Part shown: positions 11,968 to 54,073 of the stretch, piece after piece | How the letters are laid out: every line of letters starts with the position of its first letter | How positions within the stretch are numbered: position 1 is the first letter of the stretch | Assembly: GCA_016195265.1 (NCBI GenBank) | Contig: JACPZW010000014.1 | Span: 1 to 64,000, forward strand | Length of the DNA: 64,000 bases | Origin: Acidobacteriota bacterium | Lineage (GTDB): Bacteria > Acidobacteriota > Vicinamibacteria > Vicinamibacterales > CAVVIG01 | Direction of reading: 5' to 3' | Program-made: the position numbers and the translations under genes | The notes under the pieces: generated by a model | Databases searched by the model: none | What the model saw: the letters and a program-made list of their open reading frames with translations, nothing else | What the model was told of the DNA's origin: nothing

Positions 11968-12750
11968 ATGAACGTAGATCTGGAACGCCTCATCGCCCTC
12001 CAGCAGCTCGACTCGGCCGCAGACACGGCGCGGCGCCGGCTCGCTGAAGGCCCCGAGCGCGAGAAGGCGCTCGACGCGCGGCTCGAGACGGCGCGTCAAG
12101 GCGTGGCGGCGGCCAAGGAGCACCTGACGCAGAGCCAGCACGCGCGCCGCGAGCTCGAGAAGGAAGTCGCGGTGCACCAGGGCCGCCTCTCCAAGTTCCG
12201 CGACACGTTGATGGCCGTCAAGACCAACGTCGAATACCAGGCCGTGCAGAAGGAGATGGCGTTCGCGCAGGGCGAGGTGAAGTCCATCGAGGACAAGGTC
12301 CTCGAGCGCATGCTCGAAGCCGACGATCTGACTGCGGTCGTCAAGCGGGCCGAAGCCGAGCTTGCCGCGGAGCAAAAGGCGGTCGACGCGGACCGGCGCG
12401 CGATGAACGCCGAGCAGGCGGAGATGCAGGCGACGATCGACCGGATCACGGGCGAGCGCGGCGCCGTCGTCGGCGCCCTCGACAAACAGGTGCTCGCCAC
12501 GTTCGACCTGGTGTCGCGCAAGCGCAACGGTGTCGCCGTCGCCGAGGCGCGCGACGGCATCTGCACGATCTGCCACGTCCGCCTGCGGCCGCAGGTTTTC
12601 AACAGCGTCACGCGCAACGACGCCATCATCCAGTGCGACAGCTGCAACCGGATCCTCTATTACGTGCCAAAGACCGAGGTTCAGGGTTCAGGGTTCAACG
12701 TTCAGGGTTCTGGTTCAGCGGGTTCGAGTCCCGTCGACCCCGCCAACTAA
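11968..12750 (+). CDS. C4-type zinc ribbon coiled-coil protein; C-terminus runs into a repeat and tRNA fragment
   Basis: CTICHVRLRP...CDSCNRILYY, then EVQGSGFNVQGSGSAGSSPVDPAN*. Confidence 0.85.
   Translation: MNVDLERLIALQQLDSAADTARRRLAEGPEREKALDARLETARQGVAAAKEHLTQSQHARRELEKEVAVHQGRLSKFRDTLMAVKTNVEYQAVQKEMAFAQGEVKSIEDKVLERMLEADDLTAVVKRAEAELAAEQKAVDADRRAMNAEQAEMQATIDRITGERGAVVGALDKQVLATFDLVSRKRNGVAVAEARDGICTICHVRLRPQVFNSVTRNDAIIQCDSCNRILYYVPKTEVQGSGFNVQGSGSAGSSPVDPAN
12678..12717. repeat. short-word repeat GGTTCAGGGTTC, left arm
   Basis: aggttcagggttcagggttcaacgttcagggttctggttca. Confidence 0.85.
12718..12745 (+). other. 3' fragment of a tRNA-Asp gene (putative att scar)
   Basis: GCGGGTTCGAGTCCCGTCGACCCCGCCA: complete T-arm, 7-nt acceptor strand, G73 discriminator, CCA; no 5' half upstream. 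Confidence 0.75.
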
Positions 12751-12764
12751 AGGCTGAGCGTTCT

Positions 12765-13136
12765 TCATAAAGCTGTAGCGACCCGGTATCCGCAGTGTCG
12801 GACGTAGTTGGCGCACTCGGTGGGCGTGTACAAACCGAGCGCCACAGCGACGAGGGCACAGACCTGATCGAAACTGCGCGGTCGCGCGGCGCGCATGAAG
12901 GCTTTCAGCTTGGCGAACGCGAGTTCGATCGGATTGAAATCAGGACTGTACGGCGGGAGAAAACGGAGGTGCGCGCCGACCCGTTCGATCGCGGCGCGGA
13001 TCTCGGGCTGCTTGTGGACCGCGAGATTGTCGAGCACCACGACGTCCCCCTTATGCAGCGTGGGCACCAGGATCTGGGCAATTGCGTCAGAGGTTCGGTC
13101 GTCCTCGCCTGGTGCGCCGTGGCGTTTCGGGTTCAC
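12765..13136 (-). pseudogene. truncated IS630-family transposase (C-terminal DDE part)
   Basis: [10 protein letters not shown] ... [20 protein letters not shown] ... [12 protein letters not shown]-terminal half absent. Confidence 0.88.
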
Positions 13137-13818
13137 GAGAAGCTTGTTTCGATGGGCCTGCCGCAGCTCGACGGAGAACTCGACAAGATGCGTTTGGACC
13201 AGGGGATGATGTTCAAGCAGTTCAGTCGAGTCTACAAGGTCTCAACGAAACCGGATGTCCAGGAGATTCCGGACGCGCACCTGATTCTGTTGTGCCGGTT
13301 CTTGACGTACCTGGATGACACGGAATACACCTGAAGGGAGCTCTCGGCCTTCGCAATGGCTGTGGTCATCCGACCGGCTACCAGCCGGATCCTGTCAAGC
13401 TCCAAGCCTACTATGCCGACATCACTCAACTTGTGCTACTGAATCCAAAATTCGCGTAGGACCCGTTGGACCGTGGGTCAACGGATCGAAGCGGAGACGC
13501 GTTGGCCTGCAGATCCTCGTGACGAAACTGCCGCGACTTCGTCTTGGTTGGGCAGCTGGCAAACCCGCGAAGCTGGAGACATTTCACCTCGCGGAAAGTG
13601 AACAGCTGTTCTGGAAGGCCATGGCCGAGGCGGATGATCAAGACGAAAACCAATCGCAAGCGGTCGTTTTGGGCGCATTACTGGAGGGGAATCGCTCTTA
13701 CTTTGCTTCCTTGTACTCCGCAGCGATTTCCTGTTAAGGTTGACGTGCGCTGTCTATCCTCGACCAACGTAGGCAGAATTCCGCCGCAACGGCCAAGATA
13801 CTGTCCCGTCGTTTTCGT

Positions 13819-13847
13819 TTGACTTCTGATAGCACTGTGGCTCTAAT
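13819..13847 (+). promoter_or_regulatory. sigma70-like promoter for the 2TM-GAF gene
   Basis: TTGACT - 17 nt - TCTAAT, 20 bp before ATG 13868. Confidence 0.6.
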
Positions 13848-13867
13848 CACGACGACCCACAGTTTCG

Positions 13868-14746
13868 ATGACGGATCCAAACCCGAGCGGTGCCACTACG
13901 GTTGCCCGCACGTTGCCCCTCTCGCGGCTGCCACACATTATCGCGAGCTACGCCTATGTTTGGTGGTGGGTCCTTCGCGAGAATGCAAAATCCCGTTACG
14001 GAAGGTATTTGGATCACGGGACCAAGGCCCTTCTCACCCTCTATTTGCTGCTCCTTCTTCTCGAGGTTGGGCTCGAGATAAGCGGTCACTCTGTGGCGGC
14101 GACTGGATCCATCGCGCTTCAATTGGTGTTCTTCGTGCTGATCGCCATAGCCGTAATGTTCAAGGTCGAGGAATGGCGTGAGGGCAGACAGCAGGTCTAC
14201 TTCGCAGGTGCCGCTGCCGAGATCGTCTCGACGATGGGACGGATCCAGCCAGGTAACCGGGATGACGAAGTTATCACTCGGTTGCTCGCCATCTTTCAGA
14301 AGAACTTTGAGGCGCAAGGTGCGATTAATGCGAATCTGTCTCTGCCGGATGACGGAGACCAATTGAAGGTCCGATACGTCTATCCAGAAGGGGCTCCGTA
14401 TGATGACAAGCTCGCTCTGCCGAAAGGCGTCGGCGGCTCCGGCAACTGTTACGCCGAGCGCCGTCTCGTCTACATCCCAAGCAAACACTACCGACACGGC
14501 ATCATGGAGATCATCGATTCGCCGACACTCGAGGCTGCGGAAGGCGGGCAGGCAAGAAGTGTGGAAGCGCGATATCAACTGGTCCCGGACTGCTACGTTC
14601 CCTGCACGGTTGAGCCATTCGAGACAATTCTCTCAGTTCCATTGCTGGCGTACGACCATTGTTACGGAGTGCTCAATCTTGACTGCCGAGATCGCGACGC
14701 ATTCACCCGCCGAGACTTCCCACAGGCCATTTTTACGGGTTCGTGA
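13868..14746 (+). CDS. membrane-anchored (2 TM) GAF-like sensor protein; probable 3' frameshift (frame continues to 14808)
   Basis: Two N-terminal hydrophobic helices; GAF-like GGSGNCYAERR...FETILSVPLLAYDHCYGVLNLDCRDRDAFTRRDF. Confidence 0.75.
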   Translation: MTDPNPSGATTVARTLPLSRLPHIIASYAYVWWWVLRENAKSRYGRYLDHGTKALLTLYLLLLLLEVGLEISGHSVAATGSIALQLVFFVLIAIAVMFKVEEWREGRQQVYFAGAAAEIVSTMGRIQPGNRDDEVITRLLAIFQKNFEAQGAINANLSLPDDGDQLKVRYVYPEGAPYDDKLALPKGVGGSGNCYAERRLVYIPSKHYRHGIMEIIDSPTLEAAEGGQARSVEARYQLVPDCYVPCTVEPFETILSVPLLAYDHCYGVLNLDCRDRDAFTRRDFPQAIFTGS

Positions 14747-14818
14747 TGGCCTTGTACTTGCACGAGTCCCGAGCAGTTGCGGCGACTGCCGCCCCTCATG
14801 TAACTTAGGAGTCTGCGT

Positions 14819-15034
14819 ATGCCTGGACTAGCGGTCCCTGCGGGCTCGGGACTAAATCACCGCAGGAAAGAAACGTCGGAGCAGGTGCTCGAAACGACGG
14901 AACAGGTGCTTGAGCGCCTGGCACAACGCGCTGATCGAGTGACTAACGCTCGGCCGAGACTGTCCATCCGCAAGGTTCTCGAGTTGATTCATCTCGCCTA
15001 CACCGGGCGCCCCGCCAACCGTGTGGATATGTGA
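14819..15034 (+). CDS. 71-aa hypothetical protein paired with the GAF gene
   Basis: ORF preceded by AGGAG; same strand, immediately downstream. Confidence 0.6.
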   Translation: MPGLAVPAGSGLNHRRKETSEQVLETTEQVLERLAQRADRVTNARPRLSIRKVLELIHLAYTGRPANRVDM

Positions 15035-15089
15035 CACTCCAAGGGAGGCGCTAGCGATTCGTTAGCCAAGGGATGAACGTCTAGAGACA

Positions 15090-15121
15090 AAGGGCTCGGA
15101 AGGCCGGGCCCTTCTTGTTTT
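15090..15121 (+). terminator. Rho-independent terminator closing the GAF unit
   Basis: AAGGGCtCGG aagg CCGgGCCCTT cttgtttt. Confidence 0.65.
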
Positions 15122-15302
15122 GGCGCGGAACAAGGATTCAGGAGCGTGTTCAAGACCACGGACGATTCTGGAGGATTCGGGTAGACGCCAGCGGACGAAT
15201 CGCTTTAGGTAACCGATCGGGAACCAAACCCTTATCGCCAAAAGTCGCGCGCCATCACCCGCTTAGAAAACACGCGATTGGGGTTCGAACCCCGCGCCGT
15301 AG

Positions 15303-15356
15303 GCGCGAACCTGGAACCTCGAACCGAACCCTGAACCCGGAACCATGAACCAGGCC
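15303..15356. repeat. short-word repeat GAACCCTGAACC, right arm (inverse of 12678-12717)
   Basis: gaacctggaacctcgaaccgaaccctgaacccggaaccatgaacc. Confidence 0.85.
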
Positions 15357-53106: not shown

Positions 53107-53175
53107 TTCGGGTGCCAGGTGCCTGGTGCTAGGTGCTGGGTGCCGTGCAGGGTGTTGAGTGCTGGGTGCGATGGC
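53106..53175. repeat. short-word repeat GGTGCTGGGTGC, left arm
   Basis: cgggtgccaggtgcctggtgctaggtgctgggtgccgtgcagggtgttgagtgctgggtgc. Confidence 0.88.
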
Positions 53176-53199
53176 GCGCGCATTGCTTCACGCCATCGC

Positions 53200-53592
53200 A
53201 TGGTGGCGCAGCGTTACCAGGATCTCGTGGCGTGGCAGCTTGCGAATCAACTGAAGCAAGAGGTGTACGCGCTCATTGATCGCACGCCCGCCAAACACGA
53301 TCGCAGATTCTGCGATCAGATCAAAGATTCCGCGCGTTCAGCGCCAAGCAATCTCGCCGAAGGCTTCGGCTGTTACTATCACCCGGAGTTCGCGCGCTAC
53401 TCACGGGTAGCTCGTTCCTCTCTCGTCGAAACCCACAACCATCTCGGCGACGGCGTCGATCTCAAGTACTGGTCACCGAGTGACGCCGCGCGACTACAGA
53501 CCCTCGCCGACCGCGCGACCGGCGCGACGACGCGTCTCATTCGCTACCTTGAATCGACAGACGCCCCGGGCGCGCGCCCGCGCCGCAAATGA
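53200..53592 (+). CDS. four-helix-bundle protein (S23/IVS-encoded family, TIGR02436-like)
   Basis: RYQDLVAWQLANQLKQEVYALI...RSAPSNLAEGFG... Confidence 0.88.
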   Translation: MVAQRYQDLVAWQLANQLKQEVYALIDRTPAKHDRRFCDQIKDSARSAPSNLAEGFGCYYHPEFARYSRVARSSLVETHNHLGDGVDLKYWSPSDAARLQTLADRATGATTRLIRYLESTDAPGARPRRK

Positions 53593-53611
53593 ACACGCGA
53601 CGGGTGAGCTC

Positions 53612-54073
53612 ATGCCAACGGTTTACTTGGAAACGAGCATCGTCAGCTATTTGACTGCACGGCCGAGTCGTGACGTCGTACTTGCCAGTCACCAGACGTT
53701 GACTCGGAATTGGTGGCGCGGACGCGCGTCGTACGAGTTGGTCATCTCGCAACTTGTGCTCGATGAAGCAGCAGCAGGCGACCAGCTCATGCGAACGCGG
53801 CGGCTGGAAGTATTGAGCGGCATTCCCATCGTCCCCCTGACGAACTCCGCGACCCGTTTAGCGAAGGAGTTGGTCCGGCAAGGAGCCCTTCCGGAGAAGG
53901 CGACTGTCGACGCGTTTCACATCGGGATCGCTGCAGCCCATCACGCAGCGTATCTGTTGACTTGGAATTGCAAGCATCTGGCGAATGCGACGATGCGTAG
54001 TACCATTGACGCGATCTGCCGCTCTGAGGGCCTGAATCCGCCTATCATATGCACGCCCGAAGAGCTGCCGTGA
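53612..54073 (+). CDS. PIN domain protein (VapC-like toxin candidate)
   Basis: MPTVYLETSIVSYLTARPSRD...; D-H-I-A-A-A-H acidic patch. Confidence 0.83.
   Translation: MPTVYLETSIVSYLTARPSRDVVLASHQTLTRNWWRGRASYELVISQLVLDEAAAGDQLMRTRRLEVLSGIPIVPLTNSATRLAKELVRQGALPEKATVDAFHIGIAAAHHAAYLLTWNCKHLANATMRSTIDAICRSEGLNPPIICTPEELP

Follow-up and report, generated by a model that had tools for sequence, protein, structure and literature searches.

The two-transmembrane (2TM) GAF-like gene and the 71-amino acid (aa) open reading frame (ORF) downstream of it are part of an island in the 64,000-nucleotide stretch of DNA analysed here (the window). The tRNA-Asp 3′ end copied at the left edge of this island, its T-arm-like right edge and the empty site in relatives indicate that it was captured at a tRNA-like secondary attachment site. 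The unit proper is the whole insertion (12718-15294) and not 13819-15121, the segment that a first-pass annotation had taken for a self-contained system. This clean case of capture is the firmer result; the orphan cargo looks partly decayed. For the cargo, we tentatively prefer, with less than even confidence, to read the island as an eroding remnant carrying an operon for a ligand-gated membrane effector or sensor and a small regulator, with conflict or defence as a first guess at its role and this copy probably impaired.

Extent and edges of the insertion

In the window genome, the 2.58-kb island (12718 to ~15294) separates rnhA, recognised by RVT_3/RNase_H matches in Pfam, from an upstream gene for a coiled-coil, zinc-ribbon-like protein, which we take to be of the zf-RING_7 type. 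These two genes are close neighbours, side by side, in 24 of 24 relatives whose retrieved locus contained both of them; intergenic gap sequences were inspected for ten of the 24. The island is A+T-richer than its surroundings, as first described, with a G+C content of 0.577 versus 0.668 for the window. Its features are:

12718-12757, plus strand: left edge of the insertion, att-like; copy of the tRNA-Asp(GTC) 3′ end plus ~11 nt downstream
12765-13136, minus strand: C-terminal fragment of an IS630-type transposase, DDE_3 domain part at ~12860-13088
13092-13456, plus strand: pseudogene, C-terminal part of a helical ~270-aa protein, 5′ part missing, one shift near 13319-13334
13819-13847, plus strand: promoter-like TTGACT-17-TCTAAT, the only 10/12 match on the plus strand of the window
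13868-14746, plus strand: 2TM-GAF-like protein, 292 aa as read, ORF from ATG 13868
14734-14808, plus strand: out-of-frame stretch that was probably once the 3′ end of the GAF gene, judged from the sequence and the C terminus of the relative L005
14819-15034, plus strand: 71-aa helical ORF, preceded by AGGAG
15090-15121, plus strand: strong intrinsic terminator, confirmed over 15090-15113
15280-15294, plus strand: right edge of the insertion, T-arm-like GGGGTTCGAACCCCG

The tRNA scar noted at first pass proved real: over 39 nt, the left edge is 97% identical to G000:C3:130151-130189, which spans the end of tRNA-Asp and the bases after it, and the intact tRNA-Asp(GTC) gene at that site lies on another contig. 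When the flanks were joined at TTCGA, the resulting sequence aligned to the empty site of G002, a genome of the same genus, over ~250 bases, placing both junctions at TTCGA, and the empty site carries a T-arm-like GCGGGCTCGAACCCG at the junction point. The island thus has the partial tRNA copy at an edge and the empty site in relatives by which tRNA-site integrated elements are recognised. With tRNA-targeting integrative elements and genomic islands it shares a tRNA 3′-end copy at one edge, a T-arm-like sequence at the other and an empty site in relatives, but it is only 2.6 kb long, lies outside a tRNA gene and has no integrase gene among its ORFs. Pfam searches of the island ORFs tested gave only DDE_3 and weak GAF matches above chance level. 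These observations support, as the simplest reading, that a small integrated element, with the copied tRNA-Asp 3′ end for an attachment core, recombined, presumably through an integrase, with a T-arm-like secondary site in the gap separating rnhA from the zf-RING_7-type gene. That the GAF gene and the 71-aa ORF are cargo in an island, as first proposed, is well supported by the empty sites, the tRNA-Asp 3′-end copy, the T-arm-like edges and the insertion sequence (IS) fragment.

Repeats of the GGTTCAGGGTTC type and their complement flank the insertion (12680-12716 and 15300-15345), and similar repeats occur in the same zf-RING_7-type/rnhA gap of two same-genus genomes (L019, L020).

A transposase fragment and a helical pseudogene

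The IS remnant reported by the first-pass annotation is likewise genuine, as the transposase fragment matches PF13358 (DDE_3; E = 2.6e-18, profile positions 66-145 of 146). A second IS630 copy, sought to define the ends of the element, was absent from the genome. Next to this fragment lies what is clearly a broken gene. It consists of two pieces, each in its own frame (13092-13331 and 13319-13456), and these line up end to end with a 270-aa protein from another family of the phylum (L078, 826-1635), to whose C-terminal half the pseudogene corresponds; the alignment scores were 119 and 70, with shuffle means of 26 and 23, and none of 2000 shuffles reached either. By eye, the pseudogene has the motif RNGCGH, with RCQCAH as its counterpart in L078. 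Such an RNxxxH-type motif recalls HEPN ribonucleases, which is only a lead as to whether the pseudogene is HEPN-like; neither the pieces nor the intact L078 relative matched Pfam or PADLOC, HEPN models included. An ORF at 13315-13737 was rejected as a gene, since its coding signal is weak and about equal in all three frames and it partly overlaps the pseudogene in another frame. In L078, the 270-aa protein is part of an intact two-gene unit (174-815 and 826-1635, encoding 214 and 270 aa); the unit had no match in Pfam or PADLOC.

The data also support that the element no longer has an integrase, was hit by an IS630-type element and is probably eroding. Under the preferred reading, its last cargo is the operon for the membrane protein and the 71-aa helical protein.

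The membrane GAF-like gene, its probable frame change and the 71-aa ORF

The 292-aa protein has hydrophobic segments at residues 54-72 and 82-100, which bears out the two TM helices assigned to the ORF from ATG 13868. No clear ribosome-binding site was seen before this ATG. The promoter claimed at first pass is present, and when the 131 nt upstream were shuffled, a match of this quality turned up in 0.65% of cases; however, its -10 element (TCTAAT) lacks an A at position 2 and is therefore unlisted under a stricter promoter scan. In its C-terminal half, the protein can be aligned to the last part of the PF01590 and PF13185 (GAF and GAF_2) profiles, but its best GAF match (E = 0.0038, profile positions 56-120 of 136) scores 17.9 bits, below the Pfam cut-off of 28.6. 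A PDB profile search gave nothing below E = 0.065, and the AlphaFold model, with a mean pLDDT of 38, was too poor for use or for a fold search. We nonetheless call the domain GAF because a distant relative, L005, passes the cut-offs of both PF13185 (29.0 versus 28.6) and PF01590 (22.8 versus 22.4). The GAF-like domain of the first-pass annotation is thus upheld through this relative, whereas the window protein itself departs from Pfam GAF/GAF_2 in its score below the gathering threshold and its out-of-frame C-terminal helix.

L005, which comes from a different family of the same phylum and is 24% identical, was the one full-length 2TM-GAF relative among the ~500 genomes sampled from the phylum. 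Its E-value (8.8e-5 per genome) is borderline for a search of 396 genomes, so we rely for the relationship on the direct comparison (2e-9 for that single comparison), on a shuffle test (alignment score 113; mean 33 and maximum 57 in 1000 shuffles) and on the shared layout: a short ORF, here of 68 aa, again lies downstream of the GAF gene on the same strand. The first hydrophobic segment of L005 is weak, and the conserved N-terminal part of the protein precedes the first ATG/GTG/TTG. The 68-aa and 71-aa ORFs have no detectable similarity; with nothing to identify them as one and the same protein, we cannot claim that the pair is co-conserved. Searches of genome contigs with the GAF protein and with the two-row alignment yielded no relatives, and viral contigs, plasmids and phages had no match to the GAF protein or L005. 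The alignment search otherwise hit larger sensor proteins, through short matches to the GAF end, or membrane stretches by chance (for example L082, which sits among succinate-dehydrogenase-type genes). With a single relative found, neither a family nor a partnership is established. Fragments of ORFs close to the L005 GAF gene (L080, 1900-2660) recall an adenine glycosylase; they gave only a weak helix-hairpin-helix match (E = 0.01).

The 3′ end of the window gene appears altered. The ORF stops at TGA 14744, before the last GAF helix, and at a T5 run (14730-14734) the other frame continues as FYGFVMALYLHESRAVAATAAPHVT to TAG 14806, which abuts the AGGAG of the 71-aa ORF. The C terminus of L005 is a helix comparable to this out-of-frame FYGFVMALYLHESRAVAATAAPHVT continuation; on its own, the 25-codon tail has a weak coding signal. 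We infer that a one-base change near the T5 run, real or introduced in assembly, cut off the C-terminal helix, and that this copy of the gene is probably impaired. Because the source assembly is a draft (87 contigs, 91% completeness), an error of sequencing or assembly could account for the shift. Given the apparent shift of the GAF frame, the unit is possibly not intact, and "self-contained system", which would also call for co-conservation, was too strong a description.

The apparent frame change raises the question of whether both genes have by now become pseudogenes, decaying cargo that no longer serves any function. The open continuation that ends at the ribosome-binding site of the next gene fits such decay, as do the broken helical gene nearby, the IS fragment, the failure to find an integrase inside and the absence of the insertion from relatives. 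Yet both ORFs are free of internal stops and keep a host-like codon preference in their named frames, above composition shuffles (GAF ORF, -0.13 versus -0.66, sd 0.07; 71-aa ORF, -0.09 versus -0.57, sd 0.14), the promoter-like site and the terminator are intact, and the shift may not be real. We therefore regard complete decay of the pair as unlikely, and keep to an operon of which one gene is probably impaired.

The second gene of this operon, the AGGAG-ATG 14819 ORF, is present as annotated and is followed by the terminator (z = -3.7), in agreement with the earlier call. The 71-aa protein is modelled as two helices with a pLDDT near 90, for which a fold search returned no significant match. 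It has the coding signal that the first-pass annotation had called for but not the homologs, none being found in the genomes of relatives, viral contigs, plasmids or phages. Its best match in relatives, L067, was rejected as chance, there being no 2TM-GAF ORF nearby. In PHROG, the only match was a weak one of the 71-aa ORF to phrog_22087 (E = 0.026). As neither gene had a Pfam or NCBIfam family above cut-off or a PADLOC match, "undescribed" was a fair term; a literature search with limited coverage of subscription papers turned up no account of a 2TM-GAF plus small-protein system.

A two-gene operon with a small helical second protein in a mobile context could also encode a toxin-antitoxin-like pair, with the membrane protein as toxin and the 71-aa protein as antitoxin. 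We consider this improbable: neither resembles any toxin-antitoxin family in Pfam, NCBIfam or PADLOC, a 292-aa ligand-domain toxin ahead of its antitoxin would be an unusual order, and the small protein is without a homolog.

Known systems and possible roles of the cargo

The Pycsar receptor PycTM joins a transmembrane segment to a cyclic-nucleotide-binding domain (PMC11224242). In the window protein, too, a membrane segment is fused to what is probably a small-ligand domain on the cytoplasmic side, which makes PycTM a model for ligand-gated membrane damage, but the ligand domain here is GAF-like and the partner a 71-aa helical ORF. No cyclic-nucleotide-binding domain was present in the 292-aa protein, for which Pfam gave only GAF-type matches, and no pyrimidine cyclase gene lay in or beside the island, where PADLOC reported none. 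Nucleotide-dependent conflict systems include SLATT-type 2TM predicted effectors, and GAF is listed among their nucleotide-binding domains (PMC7159879). The window protein has the two membrane helices and the conflict-system logic of SLATT-type effectors, but here a GAF domain is fused to the membrane helices. SLATT, nucleotidyltransferase and NTPase genes were not detected, and SLATT was without a match in Pfam (E up to 1) or PADLOC. The likeness to PycTM and to the conflict systems is thus one of logic and not of membership, the defining parts being absent.

Mechanistically, we suggest that the two-helix membrane hairpin and a juxtamembrane coiled segment carry the GAF domain on the cytoplasmic side. 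Binding of a small ligand would change the oligomer and act on the membrane segment, and the small protein, translated from the same mRNA, might bind the membrane protein and either hold it off or relay its state. By architecture and company, a defence or toxin role is possible; we put conflict or defence ahead of housekeeping signalling as a first guess because of the island setting beside the helical pseudogene with its RNxxxH motif. To speak of a self-contained defence or toxin module goes further than the data allow.

Sensing is a common function of GAF domains, and the protein could be an ordinary orphan membrane sensor (redox or second-messenger) moved by chance with an unrelated or accessory small protein, and have no role in defence or toxicity. 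In line with this, the island genes had no match in the defence library, the small ORFs of the window and L005 are not homologous, and L005 adjoins genes for an FtsX-like permease and a GreA/GreB-like protein and not known defence genes. An ordinary sensor would, however, need an output domain, and the window protein has none besides its membrane hairpin; the short-ORF arrangement common to both loci and the island context with the helical pseudogene also speak against this alternative. We see an orphan sensor as a serious but somewhat doubtful alternative to the ligand-gated effector or sensor that we tentatively prefer.

Should the two genes indeed encode a ligand-gated membrane effector, they would add a GAF-based type beside membrane effectors with other ligand domains and would point to a host- or phage-made signal rather than the product of a dedicated cyclase. 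A broader proposal, that a 2TM-GAF protein with a short helical partner represents a rare, undescribed family of ligand-gated membrane effectors, possibly anti-phage, on tiny tRNA-site islands, the short gene changing too quickly for its relatives to be recognised from sequence, seems to us quite unlikely. Elsewhere in the window, in a stretch of lower G+C, we noted by eye ORFs (53119-54073) that resemble, in order, a four-helix-bundle (S23-type) protein and a PIN-like protein.
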